Of a DNA stretch of 64,000 bases, positions 1,675 to 62,556 are shown in pieces. The position numbers and the translations under genes are program-made. A model generated the notes under the pieces. It had not been told where the DNA came from. It saw nothing but the letters and a program-made list of their open reading frames with translations, and searched no databases. The first letter of the stretch is position 1. The number at the start of each line of letters is the position of its first letter. Source of the stretch: a bacterium (GTDB lineage Bacteria > Bacillota > Clostridia > Lachnospirales > Lachnospiraceae). Location: contig JAUNGE010000009.1 of assembly GCA_030524675.1 (NCBI GenBank), positions 1 to 64,000 on the forward strand. Direction: 5' to 3'.

Positions 1675-2952
1675 TTACAGCTCCATAACAGAAGCTGCAA
1701 TGTCATTTCTCTTATACTTATTCTGGAAAGAAATCCATTCTGTCGCCTCATACGCCTTGGCGCGCGCTTCCTTCAAAGTCGCACCAGTCGCTGTCACGCC
1801 GAGCACACGTCCTCCATTTGTCACAATGCGTCCCTGCTCGTCAAACTTCGTTCCGGAATGGAACACATAATAATCTTCTTTTCCCTCGAAAGCCTCGAGA
1901 CCTTCAATCGGAAATCCCTTCTCGTAATGAAGCGGATACCCGTCGGAAGCCAAAATCACGCATACTGTCGCCTTCTCATTGTCAAATTTCAGCTCCATCT
2001 CGCCCAGTTTTCCGTCAATGCACGCCTCAAATACATCCACAATGTCATTTTCCAGTCTCGGCAAGACCACCTGCGCCTCCGGATCACCGAATCTCGCATT
2101 GTATTCCAGTACCTTCGGGCCATCTGCTGTCAGCATCAGGCCGAAGAAAATCACGCCCTTAAACGGACGTCCCTCCGCCTTCATCGCATCCACAGTCGCC
2201 TGATAAATATGTTTCTGACAGAATGCATCGATTTCTTTTGTGTAGAATGGGCTCGGAGAGAAATTTCCCATACCGCCGGTATTCAGCCCCTCGTCGTTGT
2301 CCTTTGCCCGCTTGTGGTCCTGTGCAGAACTCATAATGCGGATGGTATCGCCGTCCACGAAGGAAAGTACCGACACCTCGCGCCCTGTCATAAATTCCTC
2401 GATGACAATCTCATTTCCTGCTGCACCGAACTTCTTGTCCAGCATCAGTTCCTTCACGCCCGCCTTTGCCTCTTCCAGATTCTGGCAGATCAGCACGCCT
2501 TTTCCGAGAGCCAGTCCATCTGCTTTTAACACGATTGGCATTTTCGCCGTCTCCAGATATGCCACCGCATCCTCTGGGGAGGTGAACGTCTCATATGCGG
2601 CAGTCGGGATGTTGTACTTCTTCATCAGGTTCTTGGAAAACGCCTTGGAACCTTCCAGAATCGCCGCATTTTTTCTTGGGCCGAATACACGCAGTCCCTT
2701 CTCCTCAAACACATCCACGATTCCGCCTACCAACGGGTCATCCATGCCAATCACGGTCAAATCAATCTCTTTTTCTTTTGCAAATGCTGCCAGCTTTTCA
2801 AACTCCATCGCTCCAATCGGCACGCACTCTGCCACCTGTGCAATTCCTGCATTTCCTGGTGCGCAGTAAATTTTATCTACTTTCGGACTCTGCGCCACTT
2901 TCCATGCAATCGCATGCTCTCTTCCGCCGCTTCCCACGATTAAAACTTTCAT
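1675..2952 (-). CDS. purD: Phosphoribosylamine-glycine ligase
   Basis: GAR synthetase joins glycine to phosphoribosylamine with ATP, the second step of purine synthesis. The N-terminus shows the dinucleotide-like GSGGREHA motif; the ATP-grasp part includes PIVLKADGLALGKGV and EYNARFGDPEAQ, which carries the metal-binding residues. At about 425 residues it has the usual full length. The ATG at 2952 is preferred over the in-frame GTG two codons upstream because GGAGG is nine bases from the ATG and only three from the GTG. It is the last gene of purE-purM-purN-purD, 46 bases after purN. Confidence 0.97.
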   Translation of the reverse strand: MKVLIVGSGGREHAIAWKVAQSPKVDKIYCAPGNAGIAQVAECVPIGAMEFEKLAAFAKEKEIDLTVIGMDDPLVGGIVDVFEEKGLRVFGPRKNAAILEGSKAFSKNLMKKYNIPTAAYETFTSPEDAVAYLETAKMPIVLKADGLALGKGVLICQNLEEAKAGVKELMLDKKFGAAGNEIVIEEFMTGREVSVLSFVDGDTIRIMSSAQDHKRAKDNDEGLNTGGMGNFSPSPFYTKEIDAFCQKHIYQATVDAMKAEGRPFKGVIFFGLMLTADGPKVLEYNARFGDPEAQVVLPRLENDIVDVFEACIDGKLGEMELKFDNEKATVCVILASDGYPLHYEKGFPIEGLEAFEGKEDYYVFHSGTKFDEQGRIVTNGGRVLGVTATGATLKEARAKAYEATEWISFQNKYKRNDIAASVMEL

Positions 2953-2998
2953 CGACACTTTCCTCCATCTTCCGCCATAGCTTCCTCAGATTTATTTC

Positions 2999-3592
2999 TT
3001 AGATTCTGTGATTTGCAATCATATCGATCGCCTGAGGCAAAATCACCCACTCTGCCTGCTCCATCACTCTACGCTGCAGCACTTGGGGCGTATCGCCAGG
3101 CTGTACCTCGACTGCCTTCTGCAGAATAATCGGGCCAGAATCCATGCCTTCATCCACAAAATGCACCGTAGCGCCAGTCACTTTCACGCCGCGCGCCAGA
3201 GCCGCCTCATGCACGCGCAGCCCGTAGAATCCCACGCCGCAGAAAGACGGAATCAGGGACGGATGAATGTTGATAATTCTGCCGCGGTAAGCCGCAATCA
3301 TCTCCTCCGGAATCTTTACCAGGTAGCCGGCCAGAACCAGAAGGTCCAAATTTCTCTTATTGATTTCCTGAAGCAGAGCCTGATTGAACAATTCTCTGGA
3401 CTCATAGGACTTCGGAGAAATACAAATTGCCTCAATCCCATGATTTCTTGCTCTCTCCAGTGCAAATGCCTTCGCATTGTTGCTGACAACCAGCTCTACT
3501 TTGGCATTGGTAATCTTTCCATTATCTATCGCATCCAAAATCGCCTGGAGATTCGTGCCTCCGCCGGACACCAGAACACCAACTCTTAACAT
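2999..3592 (-). CDS. purN: Phosphoribosylglycinamide formyltransferase
   Basis: The 197-residue GAR transformylase transfers the formyl group of 10-formyl-THF to GAR. The phosphate-binding [11 protein letters not shown] loop is at the N-terminus. The catalytic Asn and His are in the [12 protein letters not shown] segment near residue 107, and the catalytic Asp is in [11 protein letters not shown]. The ATG lies inside the end of purM (7-base overlap) with GGGAG seven bases upstream, suggesting translational coupling. Folate dependence ties it to the folate-uptake gene folT elsewhere in the window. Confidence 0.97.
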
Positions 3593-16450: not shown

Positions 16451-16527
16451 TGATGATACCAGGGTCAAAAGGTCAGAAATCTGATGCAAGCTTGCTTGCA
16501 AGAGGATTTTTGACCCCAACATCATAT
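16451..16527 (+). repeat. Dispersed palindromic repeat, copy 1
   Basis: Begins GATGATACCAGGGTCAAA and ends with TTTGACCCC and ATCAT, with an inner stem TGCAAGC/GCTTGCA. It lies between the GH105 gene and the aldo/keto reductase. A copy in opposite orientation is at 19932-19994 and a short version at 56898-56939. Confidence 0.8.
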
Positions 16528-19931: not shown

Positions 19932-19994
19932 ACTTATCCTCTTGCAAGCAAGCTTGCATCGGATTTTGTGTCTATTTGACCCCTGATATCATCA
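19932..19994 (-). repeat. Dispersed palindromic repeat, copy 2 (inverted relative to copy 1)
   Basis: Read on the minus strand it starts at the oppF stop codon with TGATGATATCAGGGGTCAAA and contains the same 25-base core as copy 1 (inner stem TGCAAGC/GCTTGCA). The closing TTTGACCCC arm is degenerate here. Copies 1 and 2 enclose GH105, the serine hydrolase and the membrane protein. Confidence 0.8.
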
Positions 19995-26423: not shown

Positions 26424-26843
26424 TTATCCGTCGATTTCTGTCTTCCAGAATCCATGTAAATCGCAGTATGCGTACACAGCTACAGCGCGGTCATCCTCTG
26501 GCACCAGAAAGGTTGCTTCCGCCGGACTTCCTGGTTTTAACATGCGTCTCTGACTTCCTTTTTCGGTCTGCAGATAAATCCACTGGATGCTGTGCGCCTC
26601 ATCCATTGGATGCGGAACTTCTCCCACCTTCACACAGATTTCATTGCCGTTGATATGCACACGGGGAAGGTGCTTTTCTCCTGCCCCTTCCGTGTCTGTC
26701 GGTCTCAACGGTCCCATCGGTTTTCCCGCACAGGTAAAGTCTCTGCGGAATACGCCTCCGATCAACTCTACAATCGCTTTTCCTTCATCTCCAAGTAAAA
26801 ATACAGGTTCTTTCTTCGCCATACCGTCTTCGATTCCCTCCAT
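26424..26843 (-). CDS. Superoxide reductase (desulfoferrodoxin/neelaredoxin family)
   Basis: This single-domain protein of 139 residues reduces superoxide to hydrogen peroxide without making oxygen, a typical defence of anaerobes. The iron-site motifs are present: EKHLPRV (Glu, Lys, His), HPMDEAHSIQW (two His) and YCDLHGFWK (Cys and His ligands). The N-terminal desulforedoxin domain of class I enzymes is missing. ATG 26843 is chosen because AGAGG lies five to six bases upstream; that Shine-Dalgarno lies inside the 67-bp repeat 26845-26911. It is downstream of rubrerythrin, which removes the peroxide made. Confidence 0.9.
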   Translation of the reverse strand: MEGIEDGMAKKEPVFLLGDEGKAIVELIGGVFRRDFTCAGKPMGPLRPTDTEGAGEKHLPRVHINGNEICVKVGEVPHPMDEAHSIQWIYLQTEKGSQRRMLKPGSPAEATFLVPEDDRAVAVYAYCDLHGFWKTEIDG

Positions 26844-26844
26844 G

Positions 26845-26911
26845 TTTTCCTCTATTCTGTGCATCTTTTCAGCACAAACAGGTATGGGTGAAACGCTTTT
26901 CTTTCACCCTT
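26845..26911 (-). repeat. 67-bp two-hairpin repeat, copy 1
   Basis: Identical over 67 bases to 43974-44040. On the minus strand it contains GGGTGAAA/TTTCACCC (8-base loop), a nine-base linker, then TGTGC/GCACA (9-base loop) and ends in AGAGGAAAA one base before an ATG. In this copy that ATG starts the superoxide reductase gene. Confidence 0.9.
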
Positions 26912-26920
26912 TCTCTCTGA

Positions 26921-26940
26921 GCCTGCATAATTATGCAGGC
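26921..26940. promoter_or_regulatory. 20-bp perfect palindrome
   Basis: GCCTGCATAA followed by its exact reverse complement, with no spacer. It lies between rubrerythrin and superoxide reductase, nine bases before the two-hairpin repeat. It could be an operator or, as RNA, an 8-bp stem with an AAUU loop. Confidence 0.7.
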
Positions 26941-26992: not shown

Positions 26993-27601
26993 TTACTGGG
27001 CGCACTGACAGGTATATGGCGCCAGCTCCAAGCGAATAAAGAAGCCTTTGTCATGCTCACATACTGGACATTTCTCCGGCGCCTGCTTCCCTGTGAATGT
27101 ATGGCCGCAGTTTAAGCACATCCACCCTGTCTCTACATCCGACACAAACAGTTTGCCCTGCTCCAGCAATTCTGCCAGACGCGCAAAACGCTCTCCATGC
27201 ATCTTTTCAATCTCTGCAATCTGCGCAAATATCATGCTGATTCTCTGAAATCCCTCTTCTTTTGCTGTCTCAGAGAAATGTTTGTAGACATCGTCATGCT
27301 CCTCATACTCATTGTGCTCTGCAAAACGCAGAAGCTGCGCGATATCTTGGCTGATGTCCACCGGATAAGCCCCGTCAATCTCAATATTCTTCCCCGCTTC
27401 CTCCTTTAACAGCCCATAAAACACCTGTGCATGTTCTTTTTCCTGGTTTGCCGTGAATGTGAACACTGCCTCGACTACATGCAGGTTCTGTTTCTTCGCC
27501 TCCTGCGCCGCAAAGGTATAGCGGTTTCTCGCCTGACTCTCTCCCGCGAATGCGCGCATCAGATTTTCTTTTGTCTTACTGTCCGCAAATGCAACTGCCA
27601 T
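26993..27601 (-). CDS. Rubrerythrin
   Basis: The 202-residue protein reduces hydrogen peroxide to water in the cytoplasm. The di-iron four-helix bundle is shown by FAGESQARNRY, NQEKEHAQVF, EHNEYEEHDD and AEIEKMHGERF. The C-terminal rubredoxin domain has CLNCGHTF and CPVCEHDKGFF, the two CxxC knuckles. ATG 27601 has AGGAGGGAAG upstream; the longer frame is not supported. The neighbouring superoxide reductase makes the same-pathway partner. Confidence 0.97.
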   Translation of the reverse strand: MAVAFADSKTKENLMRAFAGESQARNRYTFAAQEAKKQNLHVVEAVFTFTANQEKEHAQVFYGLLKEEAGKNIEIDGAYPVDISQDIAQLLRFAEHNEYEEHDDVYKHFSETAKEEGFQRISMIFAQIAEIEKMHGERFARLAELLEQGKLFVSDVETGWMCLNCGHTFTGKQAPEKCPVCEHDKGFFIRLELAPYTCQCAQ

Positions 27602-27641
27602 GATTCTTCCCTCCTGAATGATAAGATAAAATCCGGAACGC

Positions 27642-27696
27642 AAAAAACAGGAAATCCTGACTTTTGCTTCCATCTCTGTCAGTATTCCCTGTTTTT
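27642..27696 (-). terminator. Long hairpin terminator upstream of rubrerythrin
   Basis: AAAAACAGG (27643-27651) pairs with CCTGTTTTT (27688-27696), and CTGAC with GTCAG inside. It follows the oxidoreductase gene 27748-28824 on the minus strand and ends in a T-run; the symmetric A/T ends would also work on the other strand. Confidence 0.7.
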
Positions 27697-42619: not shown

Positions 42620-42700
42620 AAAAAAATTACCTCCTTTGCAGATTCACCTTACCACAACAGGAGATAATTGCATAAAAATAAAAATGCCCCTATCTTCGAT

Positions 42701-42818
42701 GCAGCGGGATGCGGCCTGTGTACCGCGAAAGAAAAAAACGGTTCTGTCTTTTCGATTTCTTCGTCCCACCAGCAACTCCCTGTCTGACAGGCACTTAACG
42801 CACACAAACCTACTCTGC
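42701..42818 (-). promoter_or_regulatory. Tetrahydrofolate riboswitch
   Basis: On the minus strand the conserved pieces appear in order: GAGTAG, GCGTTAAGTG, GGGACGAA, CGCGGT and GCATCCCGCT, closed by GCAG/CTGC. A longer U-rich insertion separates the ACGAA and CGCGGT pieces. It controls folT, probably by access to the ribosome binding site, since no terminator is clear before the ATG. Confidence 0.88.
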
Positions 42819-42887
42819 TTTTTCTATTTTGTTTGGCAAAAAAATGAGCCATACTGACACGCTGTCCATTCTTTTGTCATGCATCCC

Positions 42888-43497: not shown

Positions 43498-43932
43498 TCA
43501 TTCTTCCTCTTTCTTTTCAGGAAGGCATCTGCGGAAAATCTGGTCCATTTCCAGATACTGCTTTTTCAGGGAAACCGGACGTCCCCCTTTGCTCAGGAAA
43601 CAATGGCGGCTCTCTCCGATACAGCGGACTTTTTCAGTCTCTTTGTCCATCACGGAGTACTCCACGGTCATCTTCACCCCGTTGTACTCTTTTAAAATGC
43701 AGTGAATCTCCACAGTCTCCCCAAAGTGTGTCATGGATTTATACTCACAGTACATCGTCAGAACTGGGCATACGATACCATGTTCTTCCATTCTCTGGTA
43801 TCCCATTCCCATCTGCTCCATCATATCACAACGTGCTTCCTCAAACCAGCGGATATAATTTGAATGATGGACAATTCCCATCTGATCCGTCTCGTAATAC
43901 TGCACCTTATGTTCATATGCCTGAAATTCCAT
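43498..43932 (-). CDS. Acyl-CoA thioesterase, hot-dog fold (YbgC/FadM-like)
   Basis: The 144-residue protein has the 4-hydroxybenzoyl-CoA thioesterase pattern YYETDQMGIVHHSNYIRWFEEARCDMM with the conserved Asp and the HSNYxRWFEEAR block. It would hydrolyse an acyl-CoA in the cytoplasm. ATG 43932 has GGAGC upstream. The second copy of the 67-bp two-hairpin repeat is 41 bases before it and is followed by a 19-codon frame (MKHVAEDRKRSVVYGISGI) that overlaps the start in another frame. Confidence 0.88.
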   Translation of the reverse strand: MEFQAYEHKVQYYETDQMGIVHHSNYIRWFEEARCDMMEQMGMGYQRMEEHGIVCPVLTMYCEYKSMTHFGETVEIHCILKEYNGVKMTVEYSVMDKETEKVRCIGESRHCFLSKGGRPVSLKKQYLEMDQIFRRCLPEKKEEE

Positions 43933-43973
43933 ATACAACGCTCCTTTTCCTGTCCTCTGCGACATGTTTCATC

Positions 43974-44040
43974 TTTTCCTCTATTCTGTGCATCTTTTCA
44001 GCACAAACAGGTATGGGTGAAACGCTTTTCTTTCACCCTT
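43974..44040 (-). repeat. 67-bp two-hairpin repeat, copy 2
   Basis: Identical over 67 bases to 26845-26911. On the minus strand it again ends in AGAGGAAAA one base before an ATG (here the short overlapping frame), upstream of the thioesterase. The remaining 44041-44283 stretch before the HPr gene has no feature I can support. Confidence 0.9.
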
Positions 44041-62363: not shown

Positions 62364-62398
62364 TAAAAGTCCTGAATTATTACATTCTAATTCCTTTA

Positions 62399-62541
62399 AG
62401 TAGCTCCCCATCCTGCCGGATGACAGTCATATAGTTCTTCACCATATGCCCAGGGCGGCCATAGACCCCCTTCGGCGTTCTCCCCTTTTCCCACGCCTCA
62501 TAGCGGCTATGGGTACTCTTGTCAAACGCAACCTCTACCTT
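62399..62541 (-). promoter_or_regulatory. Lysine riboswitch (L box)
   Basis: On the minus strand the L-box pieces occur in order: AGGTAGAGG, AAGAGTA, AAAAGGGGAGAACGCCGAAG, the CTGTCATCC loop and GGGGAGCTACT, which closes the first helix with AGGTAG. It should end transcription of dapA-dapB when lysine is high. Confidence 0.95.
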
Positions 62542-62556
62542 ATCTTGGATACTGCT

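Follow-up and report, generated by a model that had tools for sequence, protein, structure and literature searches.

A dispersed two-hairpin repeat with its own Shine-Dalgarno sequence at start codons in Lachnospiraceae

The window considered here, the whole analysed stretch of 64,000 nucleotides from a Lachnospiraceae contig (JAUNGE010000009.1), carries two copies of a 67-bp element, 26845-26911 and 43974-44040, which are identical across 67 bp on the minus strand and lie in the same orientation to the gene downstream, as the preliminary description of this DNA had stated; 100 shuffled windows, which set the chance expectation for an identical pair of this length, gave 0 matches. In gene orientation the unit reads AA-GGGTGAAA-gaaaagcg-TTTCACCC-ATACCTGTT-TGTGC-tgaaaagat-GCACA-GAATAGAGGAAAA with an ATG one base on, whereby the 3' end of both copies is ATAGAGGAAAA and the ATG occupies 26843-26841 and 43972-43970, respectively. 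The sense RNA of the unit folds into two hairpins (z = -3.2). The features of the two loci, Shine-Dalgarno sequences being abbreviated SD, are as follows.

26845..26911, minus (sense) strand: copy 1 of the 67-bp element, with the same letters as copy 2 and as G000:C107:118154-118220
26886..26909, minus strand: hairpin 1 of copy 1 (GGGTGAAA-gaaaagcg-TTTCACCC), from the fold; its helix covaries in alignment A2
26880..26882, minus strand: linker CCU of copy 1, which according to pairing probabilities can pair with the SD of copy 1 or with that upstream
26858..26876, minus strand: hairpin 2 of copy 1 (TGTGC-loop-GCACA), from the fold; 98% of cells paired
26846..26852, minus strand: SD in copy 1, GAGGAAA, 3-5 nt before the ATG, from the sequence and family position statistics
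43974..44040, minus strand: copy 2 of the 67-bp element, identical to copy 1
44015..44038, minus strand: hairpin 1 of copy 2, same sequence as in copy 1
43987..44005, minus strand: hairpin 2 of copy 2, same sequence as in copy 1
43975..43981, minus strand: SD in copy 2, from the sequence
26424..26843, minus strand: superoxide reductase (desulfoferrodoxin), from the element-adjacent ATG (PF01880, E=1e-18)
26993..27673, minus strand: rubrerythrin, the upstream gene of copy 1 (PF02915, E=4e-23)
43498..43965, minus strand: 4HBT-like thioesterase frame, its ATG 8 nt behind copy 2 (PF13279, E=3e-18)

Copy 1 had been described as starting superoxide reductase, and the adjacent ATG is indeed in frame; relatives of the protein, however, start seven residues further in, with N-termini near MAKKEPVF, corresponding to a start at 26822, which suggests from sequence comparison that the ATG at 26843 opens a 7-residue in-frame extension and that 26822 is the main start. 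The 19-codon frame described at copy 2 is correct on the sequence, and the thioesterase also has a second ATG at 43932, 40 nt further on, with its own SD (AAAAGGAG). At both window copies the adjacent ATG may therefore not be the main gene start, the copies then lying 21-40 nt before it. An in-frame ATG within hairpin 2 of copy 1 (26862-26864) opens a frame across the SD of the element into superoxide reductase (MHRIEENMEGIEDGMAKK...), and a perfect palindrome, CCTGCATAATTATGCAGG, which could be an operator, is located just upstream of copy 1 in the gap between rubrerythrin and superoxide reductase (around 26921-26939). Elsewhere the window holds a 66-bp near-perfect palindrome (336-401; arms of 32 nt, 97%, 2 nt apart), a 31-nt inverted-repeat pair, AAATCTGATGCAAGCTTGCTTGCAAGAGGAT, at 16477-16507 and 19936-19966, 3.4 kb apart, which may belong to another repeat family, and, according to the Rfam search, a tetrahydrofolate riboswitch (42700-42819) and a lysine riboswitch (62393-62545), both on the minus strand.

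The source genome (G000, 3.8 Mb) possesses at least eight copies, three of them identical, with the third 100% copy at C107:118154-118220, while the diverged copies show 91, 89, 86, 80 and 85% identity, the 85% one comprising the 3' half only. All eight run into an ATG and their flanks differ immediately outside the unit; a looser search with the 3' part of the unit recovered a few additional hairpin-2-only copies, likewise before an ATG. The gene behind the copy at L006 (G000:C88:22503) encodes a TIR-domain protein (PF13676).

Around 100 further copies are present in other Lachnospiraceae, with units of 60-67 bases that occur singly or in head-to-tail arrays. A second genus, represented by G016 among 61 near genomes, displays the same architecture in different letters, and its consensus as a query detected at least about 20 units at some 15 loci, many of them in head-to-tail arrays of the layout CGGTTGAAC..GTTCACCC-ATACCTATATGTGC..GCACnnATGGAGGAA, repeated, in which each unit ends in its own SD and the final unit ends before a start codon. 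A covariance-model search of the family of the source genome, as the preliminary description had proposed, gave matches in 21/397 genomes of Lachnospiraceae with model R1 and in 16/397 with the refined model R2, and R2 matched only two genomes, both Lachnospiraceae, of a class-wide sample of 391; carriers are scattered and amount to about 4-5% of genomes. A DNA pattern scan of named genomes yielded 46 matches at 44 loci, almost all titled Lachnospiraceae, Hespellia, Hungatella, Roseburia, Eubacterium or uncultured relatives, with more than 10 loci in one 'Hespellia' assembly. Copy numbers from genome searches are to be read as lower bounds. As far as seen, the repeat family is restricted to Lachnospiraceae; viral contigs, GenBank phages and PLSDB plasmids contained no copies, and none of the 4227 Rfam families matched the element at gathering threshold, be it in the window or at 20 carrier loci, with chance-level matches only at a lax threshold. 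Variant units at L085 and L100 (G397), L079 (G020) and L168 (G201) combine a GGCC hairpin 2 and a CCCCTCCGGGG hairpin 1 with the same ATACCTGTATG linker; their hairpin 1 contains CCTCC, which could mask an upstream SD.

Neither the search pattern nor the covariance models contain a start codon. An ATG nevertheless follows GGAGGAA at exactly +3 in 42/46 pattern matches, two of the other four continuing directly into a further hairpin 1. The 101 distinct R1 matches comprise 17 internal array units and 84 terminal units, 81 of which have a start codon directly behind them (for 79 the frame reaches 50 codons or more, for 2 the locus ends within it), and an ATG stands at +3 behind GGAGGAA in 63 of these 81, compared with 4/179 for GGAGGAA elsewhere in the same loci; a few units (L161, L098, L159) lie away from any gene start. 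The tabulation of copies against start codons that had been suggested as a check thus shows that copies do not fall at random with respect to genes, the sequence sets searched contained no match to the end of an insertion sequence, and the earlier statement that the element supplies the Shine-Dalgarno sequence is supported. Starts behind units in the genes for adenylate kinase, acyl carrier protein, DnaE, FabH and IspE correspond to what we take to be the canonical N-termini of these proteins, so that the starts are real there.

The genes downstream are unrelated and include dnaE, ruvA, adk, acpP, thrS, fabH, ispE, secD, response regulators and lipoproteins. While dnaE carries the element in one assembly, a search with the covariance model near 30 other dnaE genes found it at 0/30, 24 of these 30 starts being readable and preceded by an ordinary short leader; equally, 0/29 other loci with superoxide reductase genes have it, one weak hit aside. 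As there is no relation among the downstream genes and most of their orthologues are without the element, this is not a conserved regulon, and a regulon of shared function was rejected. As a unit that stands exactly before the start codons of many unrelated genes, the element looks like a spreading cassette that supplies a new translation start signal; both the portability and the recent spread proposed earlier are borne out, by the many copies at unrelated genes in the source genome and other Lachnospiraceae, by the identical copies in the former and by presence that differs between sister species.

Orthologous starts were compared between two species of one genus, G016 and G364. At b_158, G364 reads ..CGCAGGAGGGAA, a 62-bp unit ending in CGGAGGAA, and AATAATGAAAAAAAG.., where G016 reads ..CGCAGGAGGGAAAGAAATGAAAAAAAG.., which in this comparison of two genomes is a precise 62-bp empty site, the insert lying between GCAGGAGGGAA and AGAAATG, that is between native SD and ATG, with no hairpin at all on the empty side. 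One orthologue pair only offers such a clean empty site, and at this single site the GGAGGGAA upstream and the GGAGGAA at the 3' end of the insert are similar, not identical. Unit number is 1 vs 2 at C64b and C43/b_156 and 1 vs 3 at C41 and b_155; at C45 the element is present in one species and absent in the other, whereas the absent side of b_160 and b_163 holds internally deleted remnants, i.e. reflects loss. Full neighbouring units of an array are 85-98% identical, compared with about 70% for units of different loci, which means that arrays grow locally. Most first units are directly preceded by a second SD-like stretch, with a mean anti-SD energy of -8.0 kcal/mol there vs -4.2 to -5.2 further upstream (p 1e-7 to 1e-10). 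Taken together, the lability, the empty site and the upstream SD place the units in the gap that separates an older SD from the ATG, although some of the upstream SDs may have been left behind by units since lost and not be native. In the L202 region of G364 (the orthologue of G016:C24) the SD is the same, but the place of the last hairpin 2 ahead of it is taken by other hairpins (GGTACAGTGTACC, GGCGCGGTAAACGCGCC), which shows that the hairpins themselves are exchanged.

Covariation was measured on A2, an alignment of 105 rows that had been fitted to the structure, so that the following numbers lean towards the structure. Both helices have 91.9% of cells paired vs 82.6% in shuffles and 99 double changes vs 27, and the signal drops sharply on sliding; together with the fold, this upholds the two hairpins of the preliminary description. 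A-C combinations are depleted threefold (14 vs 43) and G-U only mildly (72 vs 98), and this purging of A-C with tolerance of G-U fits, and points to, a structure maintained on the sense strand, that of the mRNA. CCT, the unpaired linker, is conserved almost as strongly as the SD (CCU in 89-94%). Folding predicts two mutually exclusive pairings for the linker CCU, one with the SD of its unit (0.42) and one with the stretch upstream (0.26). Shuffling of the element interior left the predicted accessibility of the 3' SD unchanged (0.43 vs 0.42), so that the idea of hairpins which insulate or occlude the SD was rejected, and replacement of the linker lowered the predicted pairing of its own SD from 0.42 to 0.33. 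As these predicted effects are modest, the unit would at most tune translation initiation, and pairing of the conserved CCU linker with either SD may be the means. An upstream open reading frame or leader peptide from the ATG in hairpin 2 of G016-type units was rejected by eye, the frames ending or running on inconsistently among loci.

With a probability of roughly 0.6, we consider the unit to be a structured, dispersed repeat that enters behind SDs, carries an SD of its own and multiplies on the spot. One unit consists of hairpin 1, the linker AUACCU, hairpin 2 and the strong SD GGAGGAA about 3 nt from the start codon. New copies would arise between the native SD and its ATG, the old SD remaining upstream while the SD at the 3' end of the unit takes over, so that the gene would retain a usable ribosome-binding site; tandem duplications and deletions that run from one SD to the next would subsequently raise or lower the number of units at the site. 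Both hairpins would form in the mRNA, with the linker CCU predicted to pair with either the old SD or that of the unit, and the gene would probably experience a modest change in initiation strength and no specific switch. We infer insertion, not loss, as the direction of change, and the SD-like sequence at both ends could reflect target recognition or short-homology copying alike. A more far-reaching version, that a mobile element targets the SD itself by entering the gap between SD and ATG and regenerates an SD 3', so that the gene survives and the site stays open to renewed entry, and thereby builds alternating arrays of SDs and hairpins with every CCU linker selecting one of two SDs, is offered tentatively, as a proposal more doubtful than probable.

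Quite possible, if short of probable, is a purely selfish non-autonomous element of the REP or MITE type, the hairpins of which would be recognized by a transposase on single-stranded DNA and the SD of which would make insertion harmless, with no selected effect on translation. Recent identical copies, tandem copies, the lack of a pattern in gene function and ends that match SD-like sequence on either side, as would be the case in single-strand transposition that regenerates its target site, agree with it, whereas phages, plasmids and viral contigs contained no copies, the strong bias for one orientation relative to genes is left to explain and no linked transposase was found. Two carriers, G136 and G201, lack the Y1 transposase family PF01797, and in G016 and G364 it is another palindrome that flanks the RAYT-like gene; a Y1/RAYT transposase was rejected as the mobiliser as its presence does not track the element. 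The RAYT-like Y1 transposase genes, L226 (G364:C3:32301-32633) and L227 (G016:C46:82724-83056), are flanked by repeated GGGACATGTCC palindromes, which constitute a REP-like family of their own in the genus whose arrays are the richest.

The sense-strand covariation, the conserved unpaired linker and the exact SD spacing would also suit a regulatory RNA, its two hairpins being bound by a protein or ligand that represses or activates target genes via the SD, as a translational regulon; panB and panC, of one operon at L139 (about 2322-3363, minus strand), both carry the element, panC as a two-unit array, and two targets in the source genome are of siderophore-type transport (PF01497, PF01032). 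Such a regulon is nevertheless unlikely in view of unrelated targets, orthologues without the element, copy number and presence that vary between sister species and the scattered carriers. Of the translation-control RNA of the preliminary description the structure and the SD stand, while control of translation stays a hypothesis: a common downstream function is lacking, most orthologues are without the element and the predicted accessibility shifts are weak. That no insertion took place, the SD region having been duplicated locally and hairpins having grown at one gene after another, each time independently, while selection on the translation start preserved the sequence similarity, is highly improbable: arrays clearly grow by local duplication and hairpin-2-only and partial forms exist, but copying between loci is required by the three identical 67-bp copies, which stand at unrelated genes, and by the lineage-specific sequence that loci of one genome have in common, and the empty side of b_158 is free of any hairpin. 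Least probable of all is a transcription attenuator, intrinsic terminator or mRNA processing site between genes, in spite of stable hairpins and a co-directional open frame ahead of most copies (57/84), as neither hairpin is followed by a U-run on the sense strand and the sole terminator-like site of a terminator scan was on the opposite strand of copy 1, with none at copy 2, which is shuffle level; an intrinsic terminator, defined by a GC-rich hairpin and a sense-strand U-run, was rejected.

With many similar non-coding copies at unrelated loci of a genome and lability between relatives, the element is one of the interspersed structured repeats; we know of no described repeat with this combination of features. 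TAACTGA heptamer direct repeats of marine Beggiatoaceae, found at many loci and mostly few nucleotides upstream of start codons, are tandem, show no pattern in downstream function and are patchily distributed, their mechanism of spread being unknown (MacGregor 2015, PMC4679880). The Lachnospiraceae unit resembles them in being multi-locus, at start codons, tandem, function-independent and patchy; in contrast to the 7-nt units without hairpins, for which canonical SDs are reported to be rare (PMC4679880), it comprises 60-67 nt, two covarying hairpins and a canonical SD at fixed spacing. With REP, BIME and REPIN sequences and their RAYTs (PMC2817692, PMC3116915, PMC3733652) it shares short dispersed palindromes that are lineage-specific, sometimes clustered and (suspected to be) mobile, but several carriers have no RAYT, strand and position are locked to start codons, and the GTAG/CGTC tag at the palindrome foot (PMC3733652) was not seen on reading by eye, the unit ends being AAGGGTG... 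or CGGTTGAAC... and ...GGAGGAA. Pneumococcal BOX and RUP (PMC3049150) are likewise small, modular, structured interspersed repeats of Firmicutes, a likeness by general description to families unrelated to this unit as far as known. The BrickBuilt MITE minisatellite of Porphyromonas gingivalis is also dispersed, with internal tandem units whose number varies between strains, but possesses terminal inverted repeats and keeps a distance of 49-591 nt to coding sequences (PMC4596501), whereas the Lachnospiraceae unit touches the start codon and has no MITE-type terminal inverted repeats, its two ends not being mutually complementary and both hairpins being internal. The open-access literature searched, subscription papers being outside its scope, contained no Lachnospiraceae repeat of this kind.

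Small bacterial repeats, to our knowledge, mostly avoid the translation start or act on transcription or mRNA ends. The element points to a mobility mechanism not yet known, and if the targeting of the SD itself held true, it would be a variable-number tandem repeat that acts on translation, not transcription. If the main reading is correct, a repeat that spreads with its own SD, keeps the order SD, 3 nt and ATG at many unrelated genes and differs in unit number from one sister species to the other would give genomes a new means of adjusting protein yield for individual genes, and would put naturally evolved translation-initiation parts of gut bacteria on offer.
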